64,000 nucleotides of DNA from Hyalangium ruber (lineage in GTDB: Bacteria > Myxococcota > Myxococcia > Myxococcales > Myxococcaceae), in NCBI RefSeq assembly GCF_034259325.1, contig NZ_JAXIVS010000006.1:1-64000 (forward strand). Reading direction: 5' to 3'. The translations under genes and the position numbers were made by a program. The notes beneath the pieces are model-generated. The model was given only the letters and a program-made list of their open reading frames with translations, did no database searches and was not told where the DNA came from. This document shows, piece after piece, positions 1,893 through 16,833 of this stretch. Position 1 is the stretch's first letter; each line of letters starts with the position of its first letter.

Positions 1893-1908
1893 AGACGTAC
1901 TAAAAAAG

Positions 1909-1937
1909 TGGAGGCGGCGGGAATCGAACCCGCCGCT
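1909..1937 (-). repeat. tRNA 3'-end-like sequence, candidate att site (copy 1)
   Basis: Read on the minus strand this 29-bp stretch gives a perfect T-stem and loop (GCGGG-TTCGATT-CCCGC), a CGCCTCC acceptor strand and a discriminator A, followed by a T-run. The upstream bases (to about 1995) do not fold into a normal tRNA: no pairing 5' acceptor strand and no U33 in the candidate anticodon loop. It is therefore a 3' fragment or a decayed tRNA. A second copy lies at 4070-4098 in the same orientation with 26 of 29 bases identical. The position just after int suggests attL/attR. Confidence 0.5.
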
Positions 1938-2055
1938 CGGAGCTTCGGACGAGCGCGATCCAACGCTCTCGCTGCTGGGGCATGCCGATACGCTCCAGCG
2001 GAGAACCGGCGTAGCCTTGACCCGCAGCACCTCGCTTGATTGAAAGGACGTGGCC

Positions 2056-2973
2056 ATGCGTGCGCGAACTTGCAGCGCTCCCCTGCTCCTGTTCCTGCTC
2101 TCGGCCTGCGCCACGATGGATCCGGGCCCGGGAGAGTTGGAGGACCCGAGTCCCCTGAGTCCGAGATTCGCCAACCTTCAGCGAGCGGCGCAGTACCCGT
2201 GGACGGATGATGGGAAATGCGTGGTGCGGGAAGCCTCCAACGAGTGGCCGATCCTTGCGGAGCGGTGCTTTCATGCTCTCGATCGCGACAGGGTCAGGTT
2301 TCGGGATGTCACCAAAAGATGCGCTGTCGCCTACGCGGATGCAGCCGCTCCCGCCGTCGTGGCCCTCTGTGTTTTCGCGGCACCCGAGATCGTCGTCGGT
2401 GCAGTGATTGTTATTGGCGCGGTGGTGGTAGCCGCCGCCATCCAGGAGGGGATTGATGCTTATCAACGGAACGCATCCCGCGAGCGCGTGAAGCCCAAGG
2501 CTCAAACGCAGACCGCTCAGGAACCGTTATCGAACCGAACGCCAAAGCCAAAGGGGTCACCCACCGGAGACATCTTCCCCCCTCCGCCAGAAACCACACC
2601 GCGCCGTCCGTCGTGCGAGCCCATCCCGGTGCCGCACGCGGGCGGAGATGTCCCGCATAACGAGTGCGCTGATAAGTTTCCGCCCAACCGTTATCCCGGC
2701 ATGGACGTATTCGTGGGCAGTGAGCGCTTCGATGCACTGCAAGTCGGTGTGCGCGTGCTGTGGGAGATCAAGACCCACCGGTTTGACACCTACCCTGACT
2801 TTATCCAGGAGCGGGAGCTTGATAAAGAGATCGCGCAATTGACTAAGGAACGCGACGCTGCGCGGGTCTGTGGATACGACTTCATCGTTGGGGTGAGCAC
2901 GCAAGCGCACAAAGATGCGCTGCTGCAACGGGATGAGTCCCTTAAGATCGTCGTCACGGGGTGTAAACGATGA
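2056..2973 (+). CDS. SitA-like polymorphic toxin lipoprotein with nuclease-like C-terminus
   Basis: A 305-residue exported lipoprotein: signal peptide with lipobox LSAC (lipidated C18), a hydrophobic Ala/Val segment at about 93-130, a Pro-rich linker (about 145-200) and a compact C-terminal domain. The architecture matches the myxobacterial SitA/DUF6310-type proteins, which are handed to neighbours by TraA-dependent outer-membrane exchange and kill cells lacking immunity. In the C-terminal domain D217 followed by E237-I-K239 (VLWEIKTHRF) fits a PD-(D/E)xK nuclease core; this is my inference. The ATG at 2056 is preferred over GTG 2050 because GAAAGGAC is correctly spaced. The next gene overlaps by 4 bp and should be the immunity gene. 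Confidence 0.75.
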   Translation: MRARTCSAPLLLFLLSACATMDPGPGELEDPSPLSPRFANLQRAAQYPWTDDGKCVVREASNEWPILAERCFHALDRDRVRFRDVTKRCAVAYADAAAPAVVALCVFAAPEIVVGAVIVIGAVVVAAAIQEGIDAYQRNASRERVKPKAQTQTAQEPLSNRTPKPKGSPTGDIFPPPPETTPRRPSCEPIPVPHAGGDVPHNECADKFPPNRYPGMDVFVGSERFDALQVGVRVLWEIKTHRFDTYPDFIQERELDKEIAQLTKERDAARVCGYDFIVGVSTQAHKDALLQRDESLKIVVTGCKR

Positions 2974-3728
2974 CTAGGCGTAGAGCCCTCAGCGTCAGAG
3001 TCTACGCGCCTGCGCTCGTGGGCAAAGACGGCCGCACGCTCGATGTCATCCATGGGATGGAAGCGGCACTTCCCGGTTTGCGCATGGCGTGGAGGATCTC
3101 CGAAGGCGGGCGCCCCATCGCCTTGCCGCATCGCGACGCGTGGCTCGCGGAGAGGACGCAGAACGGGGGGTTCCCTCTTCTGTGCAACGGGGACGAGAGT
3201 TACCCCGTGACGGTTTCGGGGAGGGGAACCTCGGCACTCTTCAGCCCGGGCGGTCAGTCCCTGTTTGAAGTGAACGCAAAACTGCCACTGGACGAGCCCG
3301 TCATCGTGGCAGCGGCGGCTATGCTTGAGGCCGTGGCGGAGGGGGCGCGCTCGTTCTGGGGGCGTGCGACGCCAGACGACGCTGCGCTGGACATCGCGTA
3401 TCAGACAGCACCCACGCAGGAAGGGCCGCCGTCCCCACGCCGGGGGCTGCCCGCACTGAAGCTCTCCCAGCACATCCGTTCGCCTGAGATTCCCTCCTAC
3501 CTCGGGTGGCTGAACTATTGGTCTGCCGCTGCCGGGCAGGCCATCGGCTTCCCGGATCCTGTCCGTGATGCCGAACTGCTTACGCGGGCGCGTCGCACCC
3601 CGTCGGGCGGTTGGGTTGTGAAGCTCACGAATGAGCCGCTCAATCTCGACAACCCCGCCCACCTGGACGCGCTCAAGCGGGCCTACGAGCGCTTCCCGGA
3701 GATCGGCGGGCGCGACTCTCCACGCTGA
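2970..3728 (+). CDS. cognate immunity protein (Imm52/DUF5953-like)
   Basis: A 252-residue cytosolic protein with no signal peptide. It opens with the strand RALSVRVYAPALVG, followed by DGRTLDVIHGMEAALPGLRM, a pattern I associate with the Imm52/DUF5953-like immunity proteins paired with SitA-type toxins in myxobacteria. It overlaps the toxin stop codon (ATGA), so toxin and immunity are translationally coupled, as expected for protection by stoichiometric binding. Assignment as immunity rests on context plus resemblance; no catalytic motif is visible. Confidence 0.7.
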   Translation: MTRRRALSVRVYAPALVGKDGRTLDVIHGMEAALPGLRMAWRISEGGRPIALPHRDAWLAERTQNGGFPLLCNGDESYPVTVSGRGTSALFSPGGQSLFEVNAKLPLDEPVIVAAAAMLEAVAEGARSFWGRATPDDAALDIAYQTAPTQEGPPSPRRGLPALKLSQHIRSPEIPSYLGWLNYWSAAAGQAIGFPDPVRDAELLTRARRTPSGGWVVKLTNEPLNLDNPAHLDALKRAYERFPEIGGRDSPR

Positions 3729-4104: not shown

Positions 4105-5004
4105 TCACCGAGATGCAACGCTCAGGAACCCCTTCAGCCGCCCCTCGGCCAGCACGACGCCCGTGATGACCAGCCCCGCCCCGGCGAACAGCCTCCAGCT
4201 CAGGGGCTCGTCCAGGACGAGCACCCCCAGCGTGACAGCGACGATGGGGATGACGTAGGTGACCAGGGACGCGCTGGTGGCCCCGGTCTCCTCCACCAGC
4301 CGGTAGACGAGGAGGTAGGCGACGCCGGTGCCAATGGCGCCGAGGATTCCGACACTCCCGACCACGACCGGCGTGAGATTCATCTCGCCTCGTGCAATCC
4401 CTGGCGCTGCAATCCAGAGGAGGAGGGCCGCCAGGCTGATCTGCCCGGCCGAGAGCGCGACGGGCGCGAGGCGACGCCCCGTGATGAACTTCCGGGCGTA
4501 GACGAAGCTCACGCCATAGCAGACCGCAGCTCCGAGGCATGCGAGCTGTCCGGCGATGGAGTCCATGGCCTGGCCCGAGTGCCAGGGGTTGATGATCACC
4601 GCCACCCCGACGAACCCCAGCAGCAAGCCGCTGATCCGGGCGGAGGAGAAGCGCTCCTCCGGAAGGAACAACCCGGCCAGGATCATCGTGAAGAGGGGAG
4701 TGGTGGCGTTGAGCACCCCCGCCAGGCTCGAGGAGATCCGAAGCTGGCCCCATCCGAAGAGGAAGAAGGGGATGATGTTGGCCACCAGCGCCATCACCGT
4801 CAGGTGGAGCCAGAAGGTGGGCTCCCTCGGCAGGGTCTTTCGCTGGCTGAGCGCCACGATCAGGAGCACCACTGCCCCCGCCGTCAGCCGCCCGAGCACG
4901 ATCTGGATGGGACTCAGCCCGCCCAGGGCGAGCTTGATCAGGAGGAAGCTCGCGCCCCAGATGCACGCCAGGACGCCGAGCCGGATGAGGTTGCGACCGG
5001 ACAT
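4105..5004 (-). CDS. EamA/DMT-family exporter of the beta-lactam-type cluster
   Basis: About 299 residues with ten predicted membrane segments in two EamA repeats. The first opens with LGVLACIWGASFLLIKLAL and the second begins near residue 150. Family members are drug/metabolite permeases of the inner membrane. The gene follows the carbapenam-synthetase-like gene by 14 bp on the same strand, so it is probably co-transcribed and may export the product or a toxic intermediate (inference). I chose the ATG at 5004, preceded by GGAAG at good spacing. A GTG at 5025, overlapping the upstream stop codon, is possible but its GGAGG is too close. Confidence 0.85.
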   Translation of the reverse strand: MSGRNLIRLGVLACIWGASFLLIKLALGGLSPIQIVLGRLTAGAVVLLIVALSQRKTLPREPTFWLHLTVMALVANIIPFFLFGWGQLRISSSLAGVLNATTPLFTMILAGLFLPEERFSSARISGLLLGFVGVAVIINPWHSGQAMDSIAGQLACLGAAVCYGVSFVYARKFITGRRLAPVALSAGQISLAALLLWIAAPGIARGEMNLTPVVVGSVGILGAIGTGVAYLLVYRLVEETGATSASLVTYVIPIVAVTLGVLVLDEPLSWRLFAGAGLVITGVVLAEGRLKGFLSVASR

Positions 5005-5018
5005 GGAAGGACTTCCAC

Positions 5019-6593
5019 TTAGCACGCCTCCGCGCGCAGGCGGTCCAGGTCCAGCTCCTCCACCTCCCGGCGGCCGATGAAGAGCTCACGGAAGACCGCA
5101 TGGACGAAGCGGTCCTTCGCGCGGTAGTCGCGCACGTTGGAGAGCCCGAGGTAGCGGGCGAAGATGGCGTTGGCGCCGGAGCCCTCGTGGACTCCGATCT
5201 TCGTCCGGTACGCCACCTCGTGCGGAAGCCAGCCCTCTCGGAACGAAAGGTCCCGGAGGACCTTCTTGACCTCCTGGCCCTGAAGCTTCATGCGCCCCGG
5301 CACCGACAGCGCGAACGCCATCAGGCGGGAGTTCCAGTAGGGATTCCTCACCAGGAGCCCGAAGCGGGACGCGAGGAACGGGGAGAACTCCCCCGTCCAC
5401 AGGGTCCTGCTGACGAGGCCGAAGAGGTACGCGTTCGCCTGCTCGGGGCCGATCTCCGGTGGGCATACACCCGCGAAGAGGAGGTCGGCGCCGTACCCGG
5501 TGAGCAGGACGTCCGCGCGGCCCTCGATGCTCTGGTACAGCAGGTAGAGCGGAGAGGCGATCTCCGCGGAGAGGGAGTCGAACAGCTCGTTGTAGAAGAC
5601 GGCATTGACGATGCCGTGGATGATGGTGGCGGAGCGGACCTCGTGCTCCTGGTGCTCCGAGCCGGCGAACCGGGCCGCGACCCGTGCCTCCGGGAACTCG
5701 TTGGCCAGCTCCGTCCCGACCGAGAAGGTTCGCGTTCCCTTCTGCCGCCGCACCGCGAGCGAAGCCACGAGGCTCGAGTCCAGGCCGCCCGACAGCGACA
5801 CGCCCAGCTGGCCGCTCGCGCCCCATCCCTGGGTGCATTCGTCGAGGCTCTGCTCGACGAGCTGCTTGAGCCTGGCGCTCACCGCCTCGACGCTGCCGGT
5901 GAGCGAGCCCGGACGGTGGATGCGGAAGTATCGCCCCGCTCCCGTCTGGATACCCTTCACCGAGAACTCCACCCAGCCGCCCGGCGCGACCTTCCGCACG
6001 TTCTCGAACATGGAGAAGTCATCCGGGAGCTCAGCGCTCGAGTCGAACGCGGCCAAGGGCTTGAGCACCAGGGGGCCCAGGACGCCCGACCGGAAGGCCT
6101 TGGCCTCGGTGGTGAAGACGACCCCACCGGGCACGGCGAAGAACATCAGGGGCATGAGGCCGAGCGCGTCCCGGGCCGCCACCACTTTCCCCTGTCGCTT
6201 GTCGAAGACGAGCAGGGCGAAGCGCCCCTCCACCAGCTGGAGCGCCTCCAGGCCCAGGAAGTCCACGAGCGCGTGGACGAGCTCGAGGTCCGAGGCCTGT
6301 GCCAGGGACGGATTTCTCGCCATCAGCACGTAGGCCAGCTCTCGCCGGTTCAGCAACTCACCCGACCAGACGAAGACGCGCTCGCCGAAGTCCTGGACGT
6401 GCGCCTCCCATGAGTCGTCGACCGCGCCCGCGTTGAACCCCACCTGCAGGGCGCCAAAGGCGGAGCCTTTCCCCCCCGCGGCTTGGGGGCTGAGCTGAGC
6501 GGCCATCTCGAGGAGCGCCGGCTCGCGAGGTGAGCCAAGTGTCGCAACAAAGGAAGGAATCGGGAGCTTCGTCGGGGGAGTCGGGCGTCTCAT
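5019..6593 (-). CDS. carA: carbapenam / beta-lactam synthetase (CarA/ThnM-like)
   Basis: A 524-residue asparagine-synthetase-fold enzyme (CarA is about 500). The N-terminal amidotransferase-like domain lacks the Cys2 nucleophile of AsnB, as in CarA and BLS. The synthetase domain has the PP-loop SGGLDSS (268-274), Y367 (LTGYGADLLF), E402 (WTGEF) and K465 (YRTKIGVHEGS), the positions that form the catalytic Tyr-Glu dyad and Lys in CarA/BLS. Segments such as SVGTELANEF, NELFDSLSAEI and TKIGVHEGS closely match CarA as I remember it. Known reaction: ATP-dependent adenylation of carboxymethylproline and closure of the beta-lactam ring. It is divergent from the carB-like gene; start at the ATG with GAGGAG upstream. 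Confidence 0.93.
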   Translation of the reverse strand: MRRPTPPTKLPIPSFVATLGSPREPALLEMAAQLSPQAAGGKGSAFGALQVGFNAGAVDDSWEAHVQDFGERVFVWSGELLNRRELAYVLMARNPSLAQASDLELVHALVDFLGLEALQLVEGRFALLVFDKRQGKVVAARDALGLMPLMFFAVPGGVVFTTEAKAFRSGVLGPLVLKPLAAFDSSAELPDDFSMFENVRKVAPGGWVEFSVKGIQTGAGRYFRIHRPGSLTGSVEAVSARLKQLVEQSLDECTQGWGASGQLGVSLSGGLDSSLVASLAVRRQKGTRTFSVGTELANEFPEARVAARFAGSEHQEHEVRSATIIHGIVNAVFYNELFDSLSAEIASPLYLLYQSIEGRADVLLTGYGADLLFAGVCPPEIGPEQANAYLFGLVSRTLWTGEFSPFLASRFGLLVRNPYWNSRLMAFALSVPGRMKLQGQEVKKVLRDLSFREGWLPHEVAYRTKIGVHEGSGANAIFARYLGLSNVRDYRAKDRFVHAVFRELFIGRREVEELDLDRLRAEAC

Positions 6594-6631
6594 TTCGGCG
6601 CCGCGTTCTCCTCAATTGGTACGCTCGGGGA

Positions 6632-6651
6632 GATACCACTTTGGTGGTATC
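6632..6651. promoter_or_regulatory. perfect inverted repeat in the divergent promoter of the cluster
   Basis: GATACCAC and GTGGTATC form perfect 8-bp arms around TTTG, in the 128-bp space between the divergent carA-like and carB-like genes. The size and symmetry fit an operator for a dimeric repressor or activator controlling both directions. A second, smaller repeat (CTGAC-GTTT-GTCAG, 6688-6701) lies just before the carB-like start. No regulator gene is adjacent, so the binding protein is unknown. Confidence 0.55.
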
Positions 6652-6721
6652 GCTCGGCTCCAGCGCTCTCCCTAGCCTGCGCATCCTCTGACGTTTGTCA
6701 GGTGATCTGGCTGAGGAGTTC

Positions 6722-7582
6722 ATGGAGAGCATTCTGCGCGAAGAGTTGGACCAGGGCGTCCTGGTCCTTACCTTTCATAGCGCTGGCCCGCACAACCCTG
6801 TCAGTCGCGCCCTCGAGCGCGCGATCATCGCCGCGTGCAAGCGGGCCGAGGAGGACGAGTCCGTCCACGCCGTGGTCCTCTGGGGGGGGCCGGAGCGGTC
6901 CTTCAGCGCGGGGGGAGACTTCAACGAGGTGAAGAACCTCGCTGGAGGCCCCGAGGTCAAAGCGTGGATCGAGGGCACGCTGGAGCTCTACCGCTCCATC
7001 CTGGACCTCACCAAGCCCACCGTCGCGGCGGTGGATCGCTACGCCATCGGCATCGGCTTCCAGCTGGCGCTCACCTGTGACTGGCGGGTGGGCACCGAGC
7101 GGTGCCAGTTCATCATGCCGGAGCTGAAGCACGGCATCGCCTGCTCGCTGGGCAGCTACATGCTGGAGAAGAGCTTCGGACGGCTGGCGATGACCGAGCT
7201 CATCTATGGCGGTGAGCCGGTGGATGCCCCCACCGCGCGCCGGATGAGCCTCCTCAATGAGCTCAGCTCCGTTCCGGAGCTCCTCGCTACGGCCCGTGCG
7301 GCCGCCGCGCGGCTGGCGGGCTATCCGCAGCTTCCGCTCCGAAGGACCAAGCGCTTCGCCAACACGCGCTTCAGCGAGGGGCTGCGCGAGATCGCCAGTC
7401 AGTCGGTCGCCATCCACTCGGAGGCCTTTGCCCACAAGACGGCGCAGGCGCACTTCAAGGCGGTGCTCGGCGCGAAGTACGCGGCGGGGGCTTCTCCCGC
7501 CTCCGGTACGGCCGCCCAGGAAGCACCCGCCTCCCTGGAAACGAAGCACGCCGATGGAGCTTCCTTGAATGGCCACACCTGA
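6722..7582 (+). CDS. carB: carboxymethylproline synthase (CarB/ThnE-like crotonase)
   Basis: A 286-residue crotonase-superfamily protein. Very close to CarB as I recall it: PHNPVSRALE, RSFSAGGDFNEVK (59-71), KPTVAAVDRYAIGIGFQ (98-114), IMPELKHGIACSLG (131-144) and a C-terminal AHFKAVLGAKY. The oxyanion-hole glycines (about G65, G110), W82 and E134 match CarB's G62/G107, W79 and E131; CarB's M108 is Ile111 here. Known reaction: decarboxylation of malonyl-CoA and C-C bond formation with pyrroline-5-carboxylate/glutamate semialdehyde to give (2S,5S)-carboxymethylproline. A TTG at 6695 is an alternative start. An Ala/Ser-rich tail of about 35 residues follows the enzyme fold. Overlaps the next gene by 14 bp. 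Confidence 0.95.
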   Translation: MESILREELDQGVLVLTFHSAGPHNPVSRALERAIIAACKRAEEDESVHAVVLWGGPERSFSAGGDFNEVKNLAGGPEVKAWIEGTLELYRSILDLTKPTVAAVDRYAIGIGFQLALTCDWRVGTERCQFIMPELKHGIACSLGSYMLEKSFGRLAMTELIYGGEPVDAPTARRMSLLNELSSVPELLATARAAAARLAGYPQLPLRRTKRFANTRFSEGLREIASQSVAIHSEAFAHKTAQAHFKAVLGAKYAAGASPASGTAAQEAPASLETKHADGASLNGHT

Positions 7583-9008
7583 GCACAGCGGCCTGTCGCA
7601 CGGACCGAGCGAGCTGCGGCTTCCCTTCAAGGTGGGGGCTCGCACCCGCTTCAGCCATTCCAGCCGGGTGGTGAATGGCATTGGGGATCTCCGGCTCCAC
7701 CTCTCCCAGGCGCCACGGCTGGCCCAGGTCCAGATGGTGGAGCGGTCCCGTCAGGCGTTCGAGCACCTGCGGAAGCTCCCGGATGAGGAGTGGTTGGCAC
7801 TGCTGCGGGAGGTCGGGCGGCTCCTCGACGAGGAGTCCCTGCCCATCGGAGACACTCCCGTGGACCCGGAGACGCATGTGGATCTCGTGACGCGCGTGAC
7901 GGGCGTTCCCACGGTCCGGGTCCGGAGCGCGCTCAAGTCCCTGGTGACCGACCTCCAGCGGATGGAGACCATCCTCTCCACGCAGTCGCCGGATGGGACG
8001 GCCGCGGTGTTCCGGACTGGCAGGAGCGAACGGGCGGAGCACGCCTGGACGCTCGCGCCCCAGGGAGAGCAGCTGGCCGTGCGCGTCCCGGCCAACTCCC
8101 CGGCCATCAACATCACCTGGCTCATCGCCTTCGCCCTGCGGCGTCCTGTTCTCCTCGCCGCGTCCGCCTGGGAGCCCTTCACGCCGCTGCGCCTGATCGA
8201 AGCCATCTACAGGGCGGGCGCTCCGGATGGCGCGGCGTCCCTCGCCTTCGGCGACCTGCTGCCCTTCATGGAGATGGCCGACCAGGTGCTCTGGGCCGGT
8301 GACGTGGCTGATCAGCTCTTGTCTCGCGGCCGTCGACTGAAGACCTACCACCAGGGGCGCAGCAAGGCCGTGGTCGTGGGCGAGTTGACGCCCGAGCGGG
8401 TGGATGCGCTCACCCGCATGGCCCTCAGCGGCGCGGGCAGGCTGTGTACCAACCTGAGCGGTCTGCTGGTGGTGGGAGATGCCGAGCGCGCGGGCCTGAT
8501 GCTGGCGGAATCGCTGGCGAAGCTTCCCATCCTTCCTCTCACCCATCCCCACGCGGTCGTCCCTGCCTTCCCCAACCCCGCGATGGCCCGGGCCATCGAC
8601 GCGGAGATTCGTGCCGCCGAGGCGCGGGGCGCCATCGACCTCAGCGCGCGCTGCACCGCGCAGGAGCGGCTCGTGACCGTGGACGGCGTGAGCTTCCTGC
8701 GGCCCACGGTGCTGCTGGTGGACGGGGAGGACCGCTTCTTCGGTGCGGAGCTTCCCTTCCCGTTCGTGACGGTGGCACGGGCCCGCGCGGACGAACTCCC
8801 GGCGCGCTGCCGCAACTCCCTGATCATCTCCACCTTCAACGCGGACCGCGAGCTCGTGCGACGGCTGGCCCAGGAGCCGAGCGTCGACAAGGTCTTCCAG
8901 GATGACTTCGCCTCCCGGGGCTACGACTCCACCGACCCGCACGAAGGCTTCATGTCCGAGTTCCTCTTTCTCAAGAAGGCCATCTGGCCTTGTCCCGCCG
9001 AGGTTTGA
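7569..9008 (+). CDS. aldehyde-dehydrogenase-fold reductase (LuxC/ThnO-like)
   Basis: A 479-residue ALDH-superfamily protein, the length of LuxC acyl reductases. The nucleotide-binding part includes LAVRVPANSPAINITWLIAF (near 170-190); C293 in GAGRLCTNLSG sits where the ALDH/LuxC nucleophile lies. Its partner two bases downstream is an adenylating protein of LuxE size. LuxE activates a carboxylate and LuxC reduces the acyl-enzyme with NADPH to an aldehyde. In this cluster the pair could make glutamate semialdehyde (in equilibrium with pyrroline-5-carboxylate), the partner substrate of the CarB-like enzyme. The thienamycin cluster also has an ALDH/adenylating pair (ThnO/ThnN). The substrate is inference. 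Confidence 0.85.
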   Translation: MATPEHSGLSHGPSELRLPFKVGARTRFSHSSRVVNGIGDLRLHLSQAPRLAQVQMVERSRQAFEHLRKLPDEEWLALLREVGRLLDEESLPIGDTPVDPETHVDLVTRVTGVPTVRVRSALKSLVTDLQRMETILSTQSPDGTAAVFRTGRSERAEHAWTLAPQGEQLAVRVPANSPAINITWLIAFALRRPVLLAASAWEPFTPLRLIEAIYRAGAPDGAASLAFGDLLPFMEMADQVLWAGDVADQLLSRGRRLKTYHQGRSKAVVVGELTPERVDALTRMALSGAGRLCTNLSGLLVVGDAERAGLMLAESLAKLPILPLTHPHAVVPAFPNPAMARAIDAEIRAAEARGAIDLSARCTAQERLVTVDGVSFLRPTVLLVDGEDRFFGAELPFPFVTVARARADELPARCRNSLIISTFNADRELVRRLAQEPSVDKVFQDDFASRGYDSTDPHEGFMSEFLFLKKAIWPCPAEV

Positions 9009-9010
9009 AG

Positions 9011-10111
9011 ATGCCGTCCGGAAATCTCTACTTCCCTGACACGACTTTCCTCCGGAGGGTGATGCAGTCCCACTTCGAGCCGGAGACCGGGACACCGTAC
9101 TGGCTCCAGCGGGACCGGGCGCTCGAGGCCCAGGCGTTGGAGCGCGTACAGACCTTCGAGGACTTCAAGCGGCTCGTGGGCTTCCGGAACATGGAGGAGC
9201 AGCAGCGCTTCGAGCGTGACACGCGCTTCATGCCGCTGGAGACGTTCATCCCCCGAAGCGCGCTGCAGAAAGAGTCCTTCATCTGGGCCTCGCAGACGGG
9301 GGGGACGACCGGCGCGCCCAAGCATGGCACCTGGGGCTCCTCGTACTGGAAGTCGGTGCTCCAGTTCTCCGACGAGATGCTGGACGCACACGGCGTCCCC
9401 CGGGGCGTGAACTGGCTGTTCATCGGTCCCACGGGGCCGCACACGACGGGACGATGGGTCATCTCCATGGCGGAGCGTCGGGGAGGCCGATGCTTCTCCA
9501 TCGATCTCGATCCGCGCATCGTGAAGATCTTCGGCACGGAAGGGATGTGGTCGGCCTACGAGCGCTACGTCCGGCACATCTGGGAGCAGGTCGACCCCAT
9601 CCTCAAGCACCAGAACATCGGGGTCCTCTTCGCCACCTCCCGGCTCCTGGAGATGATTCCGGAGAAGGTGGGTCTGGCGCAGTTCAAGAAGCTGAAGGCC
9701 ATCGTGCATGCGGGGACGACGATGACGCGGGACACCCACCAGATGCTCCGTGAGGAGTGCTTCCCGGGCGTCCCCATCGTCGGCGTCTACGGCACGTCCA
9801 CCACCAGCGTCAGCTACCAGAAGCCGCCGGATCCGGACGATGACGGGCGGGTCATCTACATCCCGTCCTCGCCCCACGTGGTCATGGAGTGCGTGGACGA
9901 GCAGGGCCAGCTCGTGGAGTACGGGCGGGAGGGCCGCGTGGCCACGTACCGGTTCACCGAGGACTCCCTCATCCCCGGCTTCTGGGAGCGGGACATGGCC
10001 TTCCGGGTCAAGCCGTTCGGGCGCCATGCGGCGAAGTACCCCTGGGACTGGATCGAGGACCCCTACAGCCCGGAGTTCACGGTCGAGGGCAAGGTCGAGG
10101 GCGTTTACTGA
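9011..10111 (+). CDS. adenylate-forming enzyme, short form (LuxE/ThnN-like)
   Basis: A 366-residue member of the ANL superfamily, near PaaK and LuxE. The ATP-binding loop is SQTGGTTGAPK (94-104); VYGTSTTSVSYQ (about 257-268) looks like the second motif. At 366 residues it lacks the C-terminal lid domain of normal acyl-CoA synthetases (430 or more) but matches LuxE (about 370), supporting a role as partner of the preceding reductase rather than a stand-alone CoA ligase. The ATG at 9011, 2 bp after the previous stop, is preferred over an upstream in-frame start inside that gene. Confidence 0.85.
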   Translation: MPSGNLYFPDTTFLRRVMQSHFEPETGTPYWLQRDRALEAQALERVQTFEDFKRLVGFRNMEEQQRFERDTRFMPLETFIPRSALQKESFIWASQTGGTTGAPKHGTWGSSYWKSVLQFSDEMLDAHGVPRGVNWLFIGPTGPHTTGRWVISMAERRGGRCFSIDLDPRIVKIFGTEGMWSAYERYVRHIWEQVDPILKHQNIGVLFATSRLLEMIPEKVGLAQFKKLKAIVHAGTTMTRDTHQMLREECFPGVPIVGVYGTSTTSVSYQKPPDPDDDGRVIYIPSSPHVVMECVDEQGQLVEYGREGRVATYRFTEDSLIPGFWERDMAFRVKPFGRHAAKYPWDWIEDPYSPEFTVEGKVEGVY

Positions 10112-10125
10112 AAGGCGGCGGCGTC

Positions 10126-11559
10126 ATGAAAGTTCTTCTGGTCTGGCCTCGAAGCGAGTCGGTGGTGTTGAGCGACGAGCTGAGCTGCTGCGAGCCCCTT
10201 CCCCTGGAGTACCTCGCGGGAGCCCTCAAGGGACGCCACGAGGTGGAGATCCACGATTGCCGCCTCGATCCTCCGCTCGAGCAGCGCGCTCGAGAGGGCG
10301 CGGCCTATGACGTGGTGGGAGTGGCGGTTCCCTTCACGTGCTCGGCCCGTGCGGCGGTGCAGACCGCCCGTGAGGTGAAGCGACTGTGGCCTCGCGCGCT
10401 GCTGGTGCTGGGCGGCCACCACCCGACGGTCTCCAATGAGTGGTTCGCCGACTGCCCCGCCGACTACGTCATCCTCGGGGAGGGCGGAGATGCGCTCCGC
10501 GGCCTCTCCGATGCGCTGGAGCAGGGCACCCCCCTGAGCGACGTGGCCAACCTCGTGCCCTTCGAGCGGTTCCTCAAGGACGGACCACCGCCCGTGGGGG
10601 CGACGGCCAAGGATGTGAAGCACCTCGCGAAGCCGGACCGGAGCCTGCTCACCCGCCACGCCCAGCGGTACTTCCATTCCTATTACCGTCCCACCGCTCT
10701 CATCCGTTTCTCCGCGGGGTGCCCGTACCGCTGTGACTTCTGCATCCTGTGGAAGCTCACCGCCGGGCGCTATTTCACCAAGGCCGTCGACGGCGTCCTG
10801 GAGGAGCTCTCCGAGATCTCCTCCGAGAACATCTACGTCGTGGATGATGAGGCGTTCATCGTCGCCAAACGCATGCATGAGCTGGCGGACGCCATCGCCA
10901 CGGCGGGTTTCCGGAAGAAGTTCCACATGTACATCCGGGCCGACACCGCGGTGCGGAACCCCGCGCTGATGGAGAAGTGGCGCGGCGCGGGGCTGGACTC
11001 GGTGCTCATCGGGGCCGAGTCGCTGGAGGAGGACGAGCTCGATGCGTACAAGAAGGGCGCTGGGGCCTCGGAGACGGTGCAGGCCATGCGGCTCTTCCAC
11101 TCCCTCGGGGTGAAGGTGCGCGCGAACTTCATCGTGCGTCCGGACTTCGAGCGGAAGGACTTCGCCCGGGTGGCGGCCCAGGTGAAGACGCTCGGCGTGG
11201 ACCTGCCCAGCTTCTCCGTGCTCACCCCACTGCCCGGCACCAACCTCTACGAGCGCGTCCGCTCCGAGTTCTTCGTGGACGGTCCGGAGCTCTACGACTG
11301 CTACCACACGCTGCTCCGGACGAAGCTGCCCCTGGAGGAGTTCTACAGCGCCTTCGCCGACCTGATTCAGGGCACGGCCGCGCGCACCGACGTCCCCGGC
11401 GCCAGTCAGGCCCCCGTCTTCTATTACTCCACCGGCTCCGCCTTCACTCGGATGATCCAAGCAGTCCGAGATGGCCACAAGCTGGGGGAGCCCGTCTCCG
11501 GGACTCCGCACCTGCCACCCGCCGCTCCGGCGAGCTACCCGCTCCCGGTCGTGAGCTGA
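10126..11559 (+). CDS. cobalamin-binding radical SAM enzyme (ThnK/L/P-like class)
   Basis: A 477-residue class B radical SAM protein. Residues 1-130 form a B12-binding Rossmann domain (PLEYLAGALKG, GVAVPFTCSA, LGGHHPTVSNEW, ILGEGG). The radical SAM core starts near 190 with the cluster motif C199-x3-C203-x2-C206 (SAGCPYRCDFC). Enzymes of this class methylate unactivated carbons or make C-S bonds. The thienamycin cluster has three (ThnK, ThnL, ThnP), one of which, ThnK, builds the C6 ethyl group by successive methylations. Here there is only one, 14 bp after the adenylating gene. Alkylation at C6 or a C2 thioether are the obvious options, but neither can be read from sequence. Confidence 0.93.
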   Translation: MKVLLVWPRSESVVLSDELSCCEPLPLEYLAGALKGRHEVEIHDCRLDPPLEQRAREGAAYDVVGVAVPFTCSARAAVQTAREVKRLWPRALLVLGGHHPTVSNEWFADCPADYVILGEGGDALRGLSDALEQGTPLSDVANLVPFERFLKDGPPPVGATAKDVKHLAKPDRSLLTRHAQRYFHSYYRPTALIRFSAGCPYRCDFCILWKLTAGRYFTKAVDGVLEELSEISSENIYVVDDEAFIVAKRMHELADAIATAGFRKKFHMYIRADTAVRNPALMEKWRGAGLDSVLIGAESLEEDELDAYKKGAGASETVQAMRLFHSLGVKVRANFIVRPDFERKDFARVAAQVKTLGVDLPSFSVLTPLPGTNLYERVRSEFFVDGPELYDCYHTLLRTKLPLEEFYSAFADLIQGTAARTDVPGASQAPVFYYSTGSAFTRMIQAVRDGHKLGEPVSGTPHLPPAAPASYPLPVVS

Positions 11560-11604
11560 GGCCGGGCGGGATCGCTCCGAGCAGTGCCAGAGGGAACAGG
11601 ACGG

Positions 11605-12342
11605 ATGTGCACGGCAATCTTCGTGTTTCGTCCAGGGGAGGCCTGGCCTCTCCTGTGTTGTGGCACCCGGGATGAGGTACGCACCCGCCCCTGGCGTCCT
11701 CCCGGGGCGTGGTGGCCCGCACAGTCCCCTCGCGTTGTCGGAGGACTGGATGAGCAGGCGGGAGGTACCTGGCTGGCGGTGGACCCCCGCTCGGCCCGGG
11801 CCGCCGTCGTGTTGAACCGGTCGGAGCCGACCGGGGCAGAAGCCTCCCTCAGTCGGGGCAGGCTCCCACTCTGGGCTGTCTCCCAGCCAGACTTCAGCCT
11901 CTCCACGGCGGAGGCGGAGCTGTTCCCGCCTTTCAACCTCCTGCTCATGAGCCCGACGCGCTGCTCCTGGTGGAGGTGGGACGGCACCGGGCTTCGCTCA
12001 CGGAGTCTGGGCCCGGGCACGTACATCCTGACGTCCGCGGACCTCAACGACACGGAGGCCAGCCCGCGGCATCGAAGGTGGCTTCCCCGCTTTGTCGAGG
12101 CGGAGCTGCCAGAGCCCTCGCGGGAGGACTTCCTGGGGGCGTGGGGCGGCTGGCCGGAGCTTCTCGCCGACCCACACTCACCGTTCGACGACTGGACCGC
12201 GCTGAACGTCAAAGGCTTCTCGCACCTCCCAGGGTACGGGACGTCCTCCGCGGCGCTGGTCGCCCTGTCCGCCCAGGGGACTGCCCGATATGACTTCTGC
12301 CAGGGCCCTCCCCACTCTGGCACGTGGCGGCGCGTCCTGTGA
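11605..12342 (+). CDS. NRDE/TANGO2-family protein (Ntn-hydrolase-like)
   Basis: A 245-residue protein beginning MCTAIFVFRPGEAWPLL, with the family motif as TRDE (21-24; normally NRDE) and GGTWLAVD further on. TANGO2/NRDE proteins are predicted Ntn hydrolases with Cys2 as nucleophile after Met removal; their true substrates are poorly known. Start at 11605 places Cys at position 2. It is followed by a CoA-type Nudix hydrolase overlapping by 4 bp. In thienamycin synthesis CoA is cut by a Nudix enzyme (ThnR), a phosphatase and an Ntn-type amidase (ThnT). This protein could take the ThnT role with a different fold, which is a hypothesis. Confidence 0.8.
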   Translation: MCTAIFVFRPGEAWPLLCCGTRDEVRTRPWRPPGAWWPAQSPRVVGGLDEQAGGTWLAVDPRSARAAVVLNRSEPTGAEASLSRGRLPLWAVSQPDFSLSTAEAELFPPFNLLLMSPTRCSWWRWDGTGLRSRSLGPGTYILTSADLNDTEASPRHRRWLPRFVEAELPEPSREDFLGAWGGWPELLADPHSPFDDWTALNVKGFSHLPGYGTSSAALVALSAQGTARYDFCQGPPHSGTWRRVL

Positions 12343-12977
12343 GCAATGAGACGTGCGAGCTCCGAGGCCTCCTCGAGCGTGAGCTCCAGTCGAGGCCCAG
12401 GCGCTCGCTGGAGATTGCCGGCTTCCGGCGTGCGGCGGTCCTCGTCCCTCTCAGATGCGAGGGCGGAGCGCTGCGGACGACGCTGATCGTTCGTGCGGCG
12501 CGTGCGCCCACGCATGCAGGGGATGTGGCCTTTCCTGGGGGATTGGTCGCGCCGGGTGACCAGACCTCGGTGGACACCGCCTTGAGGGAGGCCGAGGAAG
12601 AGGTTCACCTCGCGCGCGCGTCGGTCAAGGTGCTCGGCCTGCTCGACGACACCCCAAGTGGCGCGGGCTTCATCATCACCCCGGTGGTCGGATGGGTGCT
12701 CGGGGATGCACACCTCGGACACGATGGCTGGGAGGTGTCCGAGTCCCTCGACGTCTCGGTCCAGGAACTCTCGGCGCCGGAGCGACTGACGCGAGCCGGA
12801 GTGCGCCAGATTGGCGGACAGCGCTACGCTGCGCTCGAGTATCGCCTGGAGCGGCACCGCATCTGGGGAGCCACTGCCCGGGTGGTGCAACAGCTGCTGG
12901 AGATCCTGGAGCGCGCGGCGACGTCGCAGGGAGGGGCATGTGAAGCAGAAGGCCTGCATCATCATCTACAGGAATGA
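12339..12977 (+). CDS. Nudix hydrolase, CoA-diphosphatase type (ThnR/NudL-like)
   Basis: About 212 residues with the CoA-pyrophosphatase signature: APTHAGDVAFPGGLV (56-70) ahead of the Nudix box with R83-E84-x-E86-E87-E88 (ALREAEEEVH). The helix and the following VLGLLDDTPSGAGF closely resemble E. coli NudL. Known reaction: CoA to 4'-phosphopantetheine plus 3',5'-ADP. In the thienamycin pathway ThnR does this to provide the cysteamine side chain. I prefer the GTG overlapping the previous stop (GTGA); GTG 12324 is also possible. It overlaps the next gene by 38 bp. As a housekeeping NudL it would be out of place inside this operon. Confidence 0.87.
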   Translation: MSNETCELRGLLERELQSRPRRSLEIAGFRRAAVLVPLRCEGGALRTTLIVRAARAPTHAGDVAFPGGLVAPGDQTSVDTALREAEEEVHLARASVKVLGLLDDTPSGAGFIITPVVGWVLGDAHLGHDGWEVSESLDVSVQELSAPERLTRAGVRQIGGQRYAALEYRLERHRIWGATARVVQQLLEILERAATSQGGACEAEGLHHHLQE

Positions 12978-14202
12978 CAATGCCTATCACCGCTCGAACC
13001 TCGCGGGGTTCATGCGTGCCATCCGGGAGGCAGGTGCCCTGGGCATCTGCCTGGCTCCACAAGGCGTGACCTTCGCCGATGGAGAAGTGGACCTGAGCCG
13101 CTCGTACCGCAGTGGTGGCACGCTGCTACTCGCGCCAGGCTCATCGGACGTGCCGGAACTCCGGCGGGAGGTGGGGTTTCTCTGCGAGAGCTTCGAGGTC
13201 CTGCGGATCTTCCCGTGTGTGGAGGATGACGTCTTCACCGCCGCGCTCTGCAGGAGGGACTTCCAGGTTCCGGGGCTGCTTCCCGAGGACGCCATCCACT
13301 TCCGCGACAAGAACGTGATGGCGCGCCGGGCGGAGGAGCTTGGCGTCCGGGTAGCGGGGTGGGGACTGCCCCTCACACTTCAGACGATCCAGGACTTCAT
13401 CCGCGACAACGGATTCCCGATCATCATCAAGCCCTTCGATGGACTGGCCGGGCGTGACACCTACAAGGTCTCGTCCGAAGCAGCGCTGGAGCGGGTCTGG
13501 ACGGCGGTGCGGGACACGCGGCACGACTACCGCGTCGAGAAGTTCGTCGTGGGCTCGCAGTACCACGTCGACATGCTGTTCCGAGAGGGCGAGCCCGTCT
13601 TCCAGGCGGTCTGTCGCTACACACATAACGTCCTGGAGTACCAGTCCAACAAACCTCTCGGGAGCGTGCTCCGGATGGACCTCTCCCATGCACCCGAGTC
13701 GGACATGGTGCGCGACTGCTGTACCCTGGTGCGCGGGTTTGGCCTTGGAACAGGCGTCATCCATGCGGAGTTTTTCCTGCCCGAGGACGGGCAGCCCGTT
13801 TTCGGGGAGGTCGCTGCCCGACTGCCGGGGGGCTACATCGTTCCCCTCTATGCCGAGGCCTTCGGCGTACACCTGGCCTACGAGTGGGCGCGTGCGGAGT
13901 TGGAGCCCGCCTACTCGCTGGTGCCTCCCAGGAGGCGTCCCATGGCAGCGGAGTTCATCACGACGTCGAAGCGGGGCAAGCTCGTGCAGGTCGCGGCCCC
14001 CGTGGAGCCGCAGGTGGCCAGCCACATCGCCGAGGTGAAGTTCACCCGAAAGCTCGGCGATGTCATCACCGATCCCCGCTTCGTCGCCCACGACACCCTG
14101 GGGTACTTCCTCGTCAGGGGTGACTCGGAGGAGGACGCCTTCCACGCGCTCTCCAGGGTCCGGGAGCACTTCACGATCGAGCTGGAGCCCACCCGGGGCT
14201 GA
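12940..14202 (+). CDS. ATP-grasp carboxylate-amine ligase
   Basis: A 420-residue ATP-grasp protein. About 1-120 is a pre-ATP-grasp domain, FPIIIKPFDGLAGRDTYKV holds the ATP-binding Lys, YRVEKFVVGSQYHVDM is the hinge, and HAEFF ... VFGEVAARLPGG carries the Mg-binding acidic residues. It resembles amino-acid ligases and carnosine-synthase-like enzymes, which join a carboxylate and an amine through an acyl phosphate. In this cluster it may couple an amino acid to the bicyclic acid or act in self-protection (inference). The GTG start at 12940 has AGGGAGGGGC just upstream; it lies inside the end of the Nudix gene. Confidence 0.85.
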   Translation: MKQKACIIIYRNDNAYHRSNLAGFMRAIREAGALGICLAPQGVTFADGEVDLSRSYRSGGTLLLAPGSSDVPELRREVGFLCESFEVLRIFPCVEDDVFTAALCRRDFQVPGLLPEDAIHFRDKNVMARRAEELGVRVAGWGLPLTLQTIQDFIRDNGFPIIIKPFDGLAGRDTYKVSSEAALERVWTAVRDTRHDYRVEKFVVGSQYHVDMLFREGEPVFQAVCRYTHNVLEYQSNKPLGSVLRMDLSHAPESDMVRDCCTLVRGFGLGTGVIHAEFFLPEDGQPVFGEVAARLPGGYIVPLYAEAFGVHLAYEWARAELEPAYSLVPPRRRPMAAEFITTSKRGKLVQVAAPVEPQVASHIAEVKFTRKLGDVITDPRFVAHDTLGYFLVRGDSEEDAFHALSRVREHFTIELEPTRG

Positions 14203-14262
14203 CGCCCCGTTCTCCTCTGCCCAACGTATCATCCGGAGGAGGCCGTACCTCATCCGAGGGAC

Positions 14263-15054
14263 ATGATGCGTGAAGCCACAGCTGGGTCGGACGAAAACCC
14301 TCGCCCCGGTGTCGTCTCGAGCCTCGGGCGATGGATGGTGGCCGCGCTCGTCACTGCTGGACTGATGACCGTCTCGAGCGTGGCGTACCCGTTCAGCAAG
14401 CAGGGTGCGTACCATCTGAGGAAGGTTTGGGGGCGAGCCCTGTTGCGGATCTTCGGGGTACGCCTGCGGGTGGAGGATCGGAACAGGGGAGCTTACGAGC
14501 GACCGCCGTACCTGTTCGTGTTGATGAACCAGACGAGTCTGTTGGAAGCGATCTCGATCTCCGCGGTTGCCCCGGTCCCGATGAACGCCTTCCTCAACAT
14601 CGAGTTCGGGCTGATCCCGTTCCTGGGCTGGGGAGTATGGCTGCAGGGTGGGGTCATGGTGGTGCGCCAATGGGCGGCTCAGGCGAAGCGCGCGGCTCAC
14701 AAGGCCAATCAACTGCTCCAGCGGGGAAACAGCTTTGCCATCTCCATCGAGGGGCGGAGGAGCCCGACCGGCGCGCTGCTCCCCTACAAGAAGGGCCCCG
14801 TGATCATGGCGCTGACCACGGGCGCGCGGATCGTCCCCTTGTACATGGTGGACGCGCGCCGGTTGTGGCCCTACGGCGAGTGGCGCGTGCGCCCGGGGGA
14901 GTTGACCGCCGTGCTCGGCACGCCCGTGTCGCTCGAGGGCCGCGCTCTTGAAGAGCGGGACATCATCGTTGCCGAGTTGGAGGCTCTGGCACGCGCGGAA
15001 CTCTCGCGCCAGGGCTACAGCGGCGTGGCGCCTCCGCACCCAGAGGGGAGGTGA
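14263..15054 (+). CDS. PlsC-like acyltransferase with altered active site
   Basis: A 263-residue protein of the lysophospholipid acyltransferase fold, with an N-terminal membrane segment (about 24-46) and the EGRRSPTG block (normally EGTRS). The catalytic HX4D motif is replaced: NHQSLLD-type sequence reads NQTSLLE, with Gln for His and Glu for Asp. Such a protein may be catalytically inactive or use another mechanism. It is 60 bp downstream of the ATP-grasp gene with a GAGGG site, probably still in the operon. A lipid-modifying or membrane-anchoring role for the product is possible but unproven. Confidence 0.75.
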   Translation: MMREATAGSDENPRPGVVSSLGRWMVAALVTAGLMTVSSVAYPFSKQGAYHLRKVWGRALLRIFGVRLRVEDRNRGAYERPPYLFVLMNQTSLLEAISISAVAPVPMNAFLNIEFGLIPFLGWGVWLQGGVMVVRQWAAQAKRAAHKANQLLQRGNSFAISIEGRRSPTGALLPYKKGPVIMALTTGARIVPLYMVDARRLWPYGEWRVRPGELTAVLGTPVSLEGRALEERDIIVAELEALARAELSRQGYSGVAPPHPEGR

Positions 15055-15149
15055 CGGTTGCCGCTCGGCCCGGTCGAGCTCGTCAGGCAGTGAGCGACGG
15101 TGCTCGGGAGCCATTTGGGGTGTGTCCGTCACGCTGGCACAATTCCCCC

Positions 15150-15887
15150 ATGGCTCCCGAATATCGCTTCTGGGTGGATGGGCGGATTCCCGTGCTCAAG
15201 GTGCATCACGAGCCCCGCCCATCCCCGGCGGTCATCGTTCTGCACGGACTCCGCTCCAAGGCGGATGACCAGCGCTACGATCTGGATCTGCTCGCCAACG
15301 CGGGGTTGACCGCCGTGGGCATCGACGCCCCGCATCACGGCGCACGGTGGGACGGGTGGGTGGAACGGATGGCCGACTGGGGCCCGTCGGCGTACCACGA
15401 GAACATTCTGCGCCTCGTCCTCGAAGCGGCACCGGATGTGAGCCGTGTCATCGATCATCTGAAGGACGAGGGCCACGGCCCCATCGGGGTCGTCGGTGTC
15501 TCCCTGGGTGCGTACACCGCGCTGACCGTGGCGACGTGGGACCCGCGGGTGGAGGCCACGGTCTCCATGCTGGGCTCTCCGGACTGGGCGCCTCGCGACG
15601 CGCCCATGACGCACGAAATCTACCAGCTCATGCAGCAGGCGCCGGTGCATCGCCCGGCGGACTGCGCGCGCAACCCGCTGCTGCTGATGAATGCGGGGCG
15701 GGACAACCTGGTGTCGCCCCACGGGTCTCGCGAGTTCGCGCGGAGAGCTTGGGACAACCACCCCTGGCTTGGCCGCTACGTCGAATATGTCGAGTACCCC
15801 GAGTCGGACCACTTCGTCCGCTCGGAGGACTGGTCGGACATGTGGAGCCGCGCACAGGGCTTTCTGCGCTGGCACCTTCGCGCCTGA
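15150..15887 (+). CDS. alpha/beta hydrolase (YjfP/YitV-like esterase)
   Basis: A 245-residue soluble hydrolase with VIVLHGLRSKADD (oxyanion), DAPHHGAR, nucleophile elbow GVSLGA, acid in NAGRDNLVSP and catalytic His in ESDHFVR. The order and spacing match small esterases such as YjfP. It is 95 bp after the PlsC-like gene with a weak ribosome site, so it may be the last gene of the cluster or an unrelated neighbour. A product-hydrolysing (resistance) role is conceivable; no serine beta-lactamase motif is present. Confidence 0.82.
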   Translation: MAPEYRFWVDGRIPVLKVHHEPRPSPAVIVLHGLRSKADDQRYDLDLLANAGLTAVGIDAPHHGARWDGWVERMADWGPSAYHENILRLVLEAAPDVSRVIDHLKDEGHGPIGVVGVSLGAYTALTVATWDPRVEATVSMLGSPDWAPRDAPMTHEIYQLMQQAPVHRPADCARNPLLLMNAGRDNLVSPHGSREFARRAWDNHPWLGRYVEYVEYPESDHFVRSEDWSDMWSRAQGFLRWHLRA

Positions 15888-15912
15888 CGACAGGCCTTAC
15901 CCCTGAGTCTCT

Positions 15913-16833
15913 TCAAATGCCCTGCGCTTTCAGGGCTTCGATTTCGAAGTCGCCATCGTCCACCAGTCGCTCCCAGCCTTCGAATTTGCCGAGTCCGAGC
16001 GAGCGGGCCATGGACAGCAGCAGGCTTTGGCCGGCCACGGTGCGGTCGGGCTGGAGCTGGTAGATGGGGTCGTTGAAGGCGGCTTGTGGCGTGGTGAGGG
16101 TCCAGCCCATCTGTTCGAATTGGGCAATCACATCGTCGAGCCACATCGCATTGATGAGGTTGTGGTGCAGCAGGATGACCTGCGGGATGTCCCTGCCCTG
16201 CAGCTTGTATGCGAGTTCGCGGTAGGCGATGGCGCGCTGCCGCACGTGCGCCAGATACGCGGCCTTGATGGGGGTGACGTCGGCCTTGGGGTTCTTCTTC
16301 AGGACCTCGATCAGCTTGTCGTTCAGGCGCCAGTCACTGGTGTCCAGTGAGACGTAGGCGTTGCGGTAGCCCTGCTCCTTCAGGAAGGCGCGCATGCCGT
16401 CGCGCTTTTCCAACGTGTCCCCTTCACGCAGGTACGTGAAGCGGAACCACTTCGTATAGCCGGGCAGCGTGGAGATGATGCGATCGCATTCGAGAATCTC
16501 CTGCTGGTACTGGGCCAGCGTGCTCTTGTGGAGGTCCGGATGCGACATCGTGTGGTTGCCGATGACGTGGCCGGCCTCGCCCCAGGCGCGCGCCAGGGCC
16601 AGGCCTTCAGGGCGGTTCGCGCCTCTGTTGGCGGTGACCATCAGCGCGGCCTTCGCCTTGTGTTTGGCCAGGGCGGCCAGCAGGGCCTGATTGCGCTGGG
16701 CGGCTGTCAACCGTGGGGTCTCTTCAAGGGAAGGGCCGTCGTCGAACGTGAATGCGACGGACTGTGCGAAGGCCGGAAAGGCGGCGAGCAGGAAGAAGGC
16801 GGCGGGGACGAGGTGACGAAAGGTCATCGGCAT
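15913..16833 (-). CDS. secreted polysaccharide deacetylase
   Basis: A 306-residue exported protein: signal peptide LVPAAFFLLAAFPAFA then a NodB-fold domain with FTFDDGPS (catalytic Asp pair) and NHTMSH (metal His pair). NodB enzymes remove N-acetyl groups from chitin, peptidoglycan or related glycans. Codon use differs from the surroundings: GAA, AAA and ATT are common here whereas neighbours use GAG, AAG and ATC almost exclusively. That suggests acquisition from a gammaproteobacterial-type source. It is convergent with the cluster above. Start chosen at the ATG nearest the signal peptide; no clear ribosome site. Confidence 0.85.
   Translation of the reverse strand: MPMTFRHLVPAAFFLLAAFPAFAQSVAFTFDDGPSLEETPRLTAAQRNQALLAALAKHKAKAALMVTANRGANRPEGLALARAWGEAGHVIGNHTMSHPDLHKSTLAQYQQEILECDRIISTLPGYTKWFRFTYLREGDTLEKRDGMRAFLKEQGYRNAYVSLDTSDWRLNDKLIEVLKKNPKADVTPIKAAYLAHVRQRAIAYRELAYKLQGRDIPQVILLHHNLINAMWLDDVIAQFEQMGWTLTTPQAAFNDPIYQLQPDRTVAGQSLLLSMARSLGLGKFEGWERLVDDGDFEIEALKAQGI

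Follow-up and report, generated by a model that had tools for sequence, protein, structure and literature searches.

A 596-kb contig (NZ_JAXIVS010000006.1) from the 10.8-Mb genome of Hyalangium ruber, a predatory soil myxobacterium, begins with a 64-kb stretch that we call the window; at positions 5019-14202 the window carries a set of eight carbapenem-type genes that is a real, conserved, and mosaic cluster of the carbapenem family. As judged from phylogeny and orthology, its beta-lactam synthetase is of the lineage found in car clusters, and its ThnL, ThnN, and ThnO homologues are of the lineage found in the thienamycin (thn) cluster. We favor, at a probability of roughly 0.6, the reading that these genes form a pathway to a carbapenam that is unsubstituted at C6 and carries a thioether at C2, and the product is probably a new relative of the carbapenem antibiotics. 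A first-pass annotation had proposed a carbapenem-type cluster in a myxobacterium, and the core and accessory homologues are indeed all present as open frames, together with a TANGO2-family gene that it had not listed:

5019..6593, minus strand: CarA-type beta-lactam synthetase, 524 amino acids (aa); best structure match 1q15; 85% identity to C. exercitus
6722..7582, plus strand: CarB-type carboxymethylproline synthase (crotonase), putative; best structure match 2a7k
7569..9008, plus strand: ThnO homologue, aldehyde-dehydrogenase-type reductase; Pfam Aldedh; 41% identity over 99% to the S. cattleya thn region
9011..10111, plus strand: ThnN homologue, AMP-forming carboxylate-activating enzyme; Pfam AMP-binding; 57% over 99% to S. 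cattleya
10126..11559, plus strand: ThnL orthologue, B12-binding radical S-adenosylmethionine (SAM) protein; CPYRCDFC cluster motif; 53% over 96% to ThnL
11605..12342, plus strand: TANGO2-family protein, candidate cysteine N-terminal nucleophile (Ntn) amidohydrolase; PF05742 at 8.2e-18, above the cut-off; Met-Cys start
12324..12977, plus strand: coenzyme A (CoA)-type Nudix hydrolase, ThnR-like by family; CoA pyrophosphatase 1nqy, E 1.3e-23; REAEEE in the Nudix box
12940..14202, plus strand: ATP-grasp ligase of the L-amino-acid-ligase type; PF13535 and PF18603 (LAL_C2); structure 4wd3, E 3.4e-14

The gene carA runs leftward from 6593 and the seven other genes run rightward (6722-14202), overlapping or lying 2-45 bases apart; carB through the ATP-grasp gene likely form one operon. 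Although the listed open reading frame of carB starts at TTG 6695, the ATG at 6722 is the likelier start, being conserved and preceded by GAGGAG, and the ThnN and ATP-grasp genes likely start at 9011 and 12940. The same eight genes occur in identical order, with 77-91% protein identity, on contig NZ_RAVW01000105 (24,853 bases) of Corallococcus exercitus AB043A (the two genomes, G000 and G078 in our set, carry the same family code). Homologous DNA extends over 5022-14190, in three pieces of 84.7-89.7% identity, and nothing beyond it aligned when 24 kb of the window was compared with that contig; we therefore take the unit to run from carA to the ATP-grasp gene. Across all eight genes the ratio of nonsynonymous to synonymous divergence (dN/dS) between the two species ranges from 0.185 (ThnL) to 0.394 (Nudix), with dS of 0.21-0.46, which indicates that every one of them has been kept under purifying selection.

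The CarA-like protein was compared with solved structures, and it matches CarA itself (1q15, E 1.5e-63) far better than beta-lactam synthetase (2.5e-38) or asparagine synthetases (4.5e-17 and weaker), a ranking that rejects an ordinary AsnB. Its Y367, E402, and K465 align with Y345, E380, and K443 of CarA, positions that we take to be the catalytic Tyr-Glu pair and Lys; the PP-loop (SGGLDSS) is present and the N-terminus reads MRR, without Cys2. The three residues, the loop, and the missing Cys2 are as the first-pass annotation had them. In a tree rooted with beta-lactam synthetase (BLS), the window and C. exercitus proteins join the car type with support of 98/96, on a long stem and with 29-38% identity to the car and thn types. 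Forcing the pair together with ThnM costs 19.5 log units, and membership of the ThnM branch is rejected by the approximately unbiased (AU) test (p 0.0046). It supersedes a tree whose AsnB outgroup was not a single clade and included two misframed fragments (63 and 156 aa). The CarA trees were built without three loci of the survey described below (L064 and L066, which are short fragments, and L070, with no CarA over 100 bits), and the final tree also without the near copies L039, L041, L046, L047, L048, L051, and L059.

The second core protein likewise proved to be the CarB/ThnE homologue that had been proposed, matching CarB (2a7k, E 8.8e-62) and a CarB homologue (5o34, 4e-53) well ahead of the next crotonase (2.7e-25); structure matches and tree together reject an ordinary crotonase, and the comparisons and trees placed neither core protein with ordinary AsnB or fatty-acid crotonases. 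It keeps G74, W91, Q123, E143, and H241, corresponding to G62, W79, Q111, E131, and H229 of CarB, the last four of which we presume to act in catalysis as they do in CarB. On homology and these active-site residues we regard it as a putative carboxymethylproline synthase. Met108 of CarB is replaced by the beta-branched Ile120. Gly62 (oxyanion hole) and Met108 have described roles in CarB, and the Met108 position steers stereochemistry in CarB and ThnE variants (PMC6542682, accessible text). Identity is 38-48% to the car and thn types together and 40-48% to the car type, which the protein joins at 91/90. CarB trees used the 29 of 38 loci with a CarB match of at least 100 bits, leaving nine unused; the AU-tested tree also left out L039, L041, L046, L047, L048, L051, L059, and L060, and the crotonase-outgroup tree drew its outgroup from nine of 18 unrelated crotonase loci (L011-L028). 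Among 195 genomes of the phylum, 121 hold a CarB match at E 1e-20 (at most 12 candidates scored per genome), and just two stand out, H. ruber (1.6e-194) and C. exercitus (4.1e-159, 83%); the best match in the other 119 is 2.5e-30 or weaker.

The Pfam matches confirm the pair of aldehyde dehydrogenase and adenylating enzymes, the B12 radical SAM enzyme, and the ATP-grasp ligase of the first-pass annotation, and the CoA-type Nudix hydrolase is also present. When 72,556 plasmid records were searched, two of them of the Streptomyces cattleya megaplasmid, the best matches of ThnO, ThnN, and ThnL all fell in one region of that megaplasmid; the next plasmid match of ThnN by rank has 36% identity. The region is unannotated in the NC_016113 record, and we assign its thn names on the expected order and families of the genes, backed by the matches of ThnE and ThnM and of the three radical SAM genes. 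At E <= 1e-40, ThnN is found in two of the 195 genomes of the phylum, H. ruber and C. exercitus. ThnL has matches at E 1e-40 in 15 of them, at an identity of at least 90% in these two and at most 39% in the rest. Against the radical SAM proteins of S. cattleya, the window protein scores 491 bits with ThnL, 75 with ThnP, and 35 with ThnK; these scores and the tree reject assignment as ThnK or ThnP. Besides the window protein, the tree drew on six loci that are thn-type or from C. exercitus and on 10 further loci of myxobacteria (L081-L090), with ThnP and ThnK of S. cattleya as an outgroup that is not one clade. A ThnL clade of seven rows (window, C. exercitus, Streptomyces-type, and Acidobacteria ThnL) is supported at 100/100, and the nearest other myxobacterial relatives (37-39% identity) fall outside it. 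ThnL is a thioether-forming enzyme in carbapenem biosynthesis (PMC13331322, accessible text), and its orthologue here is expected to form the C2 thioether. The Nudix protein, at 36% to ThnR and 33-36% to the thn-type loci, is a family match of weak orthology.

The TANGO2-type protein matches human TANGO2 (8sv7) at E 7.6e-5 and keeps the R-D-E of the NRDE motif, with N replaced by T. Each of the two genomes holds one further TANGO2 match on another contig, so that the cluster copy looks like a specialized second one. The accessible parts of recent papers describe the human protein as having a cysteine Ntn-hydrolase fold with a proposed active site of Cys2, Asp27, Asn157, and Lys166 (PMC13044924), as binding acyl-CoA through NRDE, with acyltransferase activity excluded (PMC11867700), and as causing disease while its function is still called unknown (PMC12782551); the text consulted demonstrates no hydrolase activity for it.

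A survey of 84,980 species genomes, scanned with a CarA alignment by means of two short patterns, yielded 36 loci; the fetched stretches reach at most 10 kb from CarA (more for S. cattleya and Pantoea), and absence below means absence on the stretch. Among the 22 gamma- and betaproteobacterial loci, 19 have CarA, CarB, and CarC matches, and the thn type is represented by three Streptomycetaceae loci and one Acidobacteria metagenome-assembled genome (MAG). When S. cattleya and Pantoea sp. At-9b were added (38 loci, E 1e-4), ThnO matched in five, ThnN in six, ThnL in six, and the Nudix gene in five, always C. exercitus and thn-type loci, and the TANGO2 and ATP-grasp genes matched C. exercitus only. 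With the S. cattleya thienamycin cluster the cassette shares ThnL (53%), ThnN (57%), ThnO (41%), a CoA-type Nudix hydrolase, a crotonase, and a beta-lactam synthetase, and the gene order O-N-(M)-L is kept apart from the synthetase gene. It differs in lacking a ThnK counterpart and other matches to the thn region (oxygenases, metallo-beta-lactamase), in having ThnP only as a paralogue of ThnL, in a CarA that lies off the ThnM branch, and in TANGO2-type and ATP-grasp genes found in none of the thn-type stretches compared. The carABC(DE) clusters of Pectobacterium, Photorhabdus, Pantoea, and Caballeronia hold the nearest CarA (29-38%) and CarB (40-48%) among the loci found; in contrast to the cassette, car-type stretches have no ThnL, ThnN, or ThnO, and on the cassette's side no CarC was found and no CarD match occurs in the stretch of the C. 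exercitus copy. The tree and AU result for CarA and the orthology of ThnL, ThnN, and ThnO thus point to mosaic ancestry. The proposal that the gene set follows the thienamycin plan rather than carABC holds for ThnN, ThnO, and ThnL, but not for CarA, which is of car type; CarB leans the same way as CarA (p 0.07). The mosaic may have arisen by fusion of two pathways, or it may be an old intermediate whose thioether genes were later lost in the car type.

In the car clusters of enterobacteria, CarD, an enzyme of the proline-dehydrogenase type, supplies pyrroline-5-carboxylate from proline, and a gene of this type is annotated as CarD in the Pantoea car cluster. At scores over 60 bits, the 36 CarA-like loci divide into 15 that match CarD, five that match ThnN, and 16 that match neither of the two, with no locus matching both, a split that, so far as we infer, would fit supply of pyrroline-5-carboxylate from glutamate by ThnN and ThnO.

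The survey also turned up a well-supported synthetase-like clade of eight loci (L055, L056, L057, L058, L065, L067, L068, and L069) from deltaproteobacterial, Myxococcales, planctomycete, Bdellovibrionales, and mycobacterial MAGs, with a CarB-like crotonase on the stretch in L056, L067, and L069 and weak CarC/TauD matches in L056, L068, and L069. The Myxococcales MAGs L065 and L068, and also L066, a Kofleriaceae fragment left out of the trees, carry CarA-like genes of another kind, with no CarB match on the stretch. At L060 (Acidobacteria MAG JAGQSE010000418, 1782-4154) a 790-aa frame fuses a ThnL-type B12 radical SAM protein to a ThnE-like crotonase, and ThnK (59%) and a PhyH oxygenase come after it; this is a cluster of thn type that lies outside Actinobacteria. 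In L036 (Oxalobacteraceae BJB404, 10001-14343) carA and carB precede a gene of the ArgJ family, and CarC gave no match over 60 bits on that stretch. In L032 (Pantoea sp. At-9b, 14758-16235) CarA looks frame-disrupted near its C-terminal end, with two tblastn pieces out of frame.

The nature of the end product turns on tailoring enzymes. CarC has no match at E 1e-5 in either the H. ruber or the C. exercitus genome, nor does ThnK, the enzyme of C6 methylation, at E 1e-10. No orthologue of ThnP was found in them: the best match in both genomes is the ThnL orthologue (58-61 bits), and H. ruber has one extra match of 54 bits, on C8. From the thn region, 93 frames of at least 150 aa were compared with the window and the C. 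exercitus contig at E 1e-6, and matches came from the frames of ThnE, L, M, N, O, and R, from ThnP, weakly and as a paralogue of ThnL, and from frames that overlap these genes or lie antisense to them; the comparison was collective, with ThnF, ThnH, and ThnT not singled out one by one. Neither the thn oxygenase frames (ThnG/ThnQ) nor the PhyH oxygenase of L060 gave a match in the window or in the contig of C. exercitus, and by Pfam and DNA alignment the block conserved between the two species holds no oxygenase. Because no orthologue of CarC, ThnK, or ThnP was found and the window has no counterpart of the thn oxygenases, a carbapenam is at least as likely an end product as a carbapenem.

A route to such a carbapenam can be proposed. 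ThnN and ThnO would activate and reduce a carboxylate, probably glutamate, to give pyrroline-5-carboxylate; CarB, by homology and active-site residues, would join this to malonyl-CoA as carboxymethylproline, and CarA, on like grounds, would use ATP to close the ring to (3S,5S)-carbapenam-3-carboxylate. The Nudix enzyme, from its family, may convert CoA to phosphopantetheine, and the ThnL orthologue would form the bond between C2 and the sulfur of pantetheine. More speculatively, the TANGO2-type protein might then cut the pantetheine amide in the place of ThnT, which in thienamycin trims the pantetheinyl group once it is attached to the core (PMC6097109, accessible text); this is an attractive idea, not a result. 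Likewise speculatively, the ATP-grasp enzyme may attach an amino acid, either at the amine so freed or at the carboxylate. The carbapenam is expected to be unsubstituted at C6 because no known C6 methylase, epimerase, or desaturase is in the cassette.

That the cassette might instead make a true C2-thioether carbapenem antibiotic, epimerized and desaturated by enzymes coded elsewhere or by its own, seems to us possible, if doubtful. The selection acting on each of the eight genes suggests that the product is useful, and desaturation and epimerization in thienamycin were called unclear in the accessible text of a review with coverage to 2017 (PMC6097109). Against this, orthologues of the CarC, ThnK, and ThnP types were found in neither genome and the conserved block has no oxygenase; C. 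exercitus has four PhyH oxygenases and no TauD match at all. It is improbable, and more so than a true carbapenem, that the CarA and CarB homologues serve another beta-amino acid or amide-forming task whose product is not a bicyclic beta-lactam: their deep branching (29-38% and 38-48% identity to the car and thn types) and the long stem of the window clade would suit it, but the checked catalytic residues are kept in both enzymes, save for the change of Met108 to Ile in CarB, and both occur together with ThnL, an enzyme described as acting on a carbapenam. That the cluster is dead or decaying, or an artefact of assembly, is scarcely credible; although the window lies at a contig end and the genome has an estimated contamination of 4.5%, the contig is 596 kb long and eight intact genes recur in the same order in the assembly of another species, with dN/dS of 0.19-0.39 each.

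Several observations nonetheless weigh against the C6-unsubstituted C2-thioether carbapenam. Four PhyH and two TauD oxygenases elsewhere in the H. ruber genome could complete a carbapenem in trans, and the only control for the negative searches with CarC and ThnK is that tblastn with these queries does find orthologues in other loci, CarC at 65-81% in 19 car-type loci and ThnK, as well as ThnP, in three Streptomyces-type loci. Orthology between the Nudix protein and ThnR is weak (35-36%), and the car-type placement of CarB is not decisive, grouping with ThnE being not rejected (AU p 0.07). The hydrolase step is weakened in that the place of TANGO2 Asn157 seems, by eye and with a human stretch that we assume to be correct, to be Ser; an AlphaFold model of the TANGO2-type protein built from two sequences was unusable (pLDDT, predicted local distance difference test, 45). 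No self-resistance gene was recognized in the cassette. A bolder version, in which the cassette is a third carbapenem branch, an old mosaic that ends at the C2-thioether carbapenam without epimerization, desaturation, or C6 methylation and uses TANGO2 as an N-terminal-cysteine side-chain amidase, we consider unlikely, slightly more so than a true carbapenem.

The remaining features of the region lie around the cassette or between carA and carB:

4105..5025, minus strand: EamA-type exporter by Pfam; overlaps carA by 7 bases; local addition
6632..6651, no strand: 20-base inverted repeat in the carA-carB divergent promoter region; candidate operator
14263-15054: PlsC; outside the conserved cassette
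15051-15887: alpha/beta hydrolase; outside the conserved cassette

The first-pass annotation had drawn the cluster from 4105 to 15887 and counted an exporter in it. The cassette does lie inside that range and the exporter is there, but the shared DNA covers 5022-14190 only; the C. exercitus contig, where the cassette's flanks lack all three, gave no match to the exporter, PlsC, or hydrolase, and these are rejected as core parts. The differing flanks of the two species fit horizontal transfer of the cassette. The first 3.7 kb of the window, at the start of the contig, hold a tyrosine recombinase next to a gene pair from the uncharacterized families DUF6310 and DUF5953 (669-3728, adjoining the cassette). 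This integrase is suggestive only as a trace of transfer, and no tRNA target for it was found, the sole tRNA in the window being tRNA-Trp at 32555. The repeat between carA and carB is perfect (GATACCAC-TTTG-GTGGTATC); in C. exercitus the promoter region is longer and not conserved in sequence, and holds ATTGCCA-CTCCA-TGGCAAT, perhaps a related operator. A lanthionine-synthetase-like frame lies near carA in the C. exercitus contig (translation read by eye).

It had also been suggested that no myxobacterial carbapenem cluster was described. No paper on one was found among the matches listed from the literature searched, outside which most subscription papers lie, which is not proof of absence; but a 2018 study, in its accessible text, lists an antiSMASH prediction of 'lantipeptide-beta-lactam' in C. 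exercitus AB043A (PMC6306037). The accessible text of two further papers (PMC9323933, PMC8307915) has no mention of 'lactam' or 'carbapenem'. As far as these searches show, then, the C. exercitus cluster has borne a class label since 2018, with no analysis found.

The pathway separates the thioether step (ThnL with ThnN and ThnO) from the other tailoring of thienamycin, and in so small a system both the sequence of steps to thienamycin and what ThnN and ThnO do become testable. For a protein of the TANGO2 family the cassette also suggests a specific substrate, derived from CoA; if the TANGO2 amidase and the carbapenam end product are true, they would provide an assayable TANGO2 reaction and a minimal ThnL pathway that occurs in nature. 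The beta-lactam scaffold that the cassette may yield would, to our knowledge, be new as an end product.

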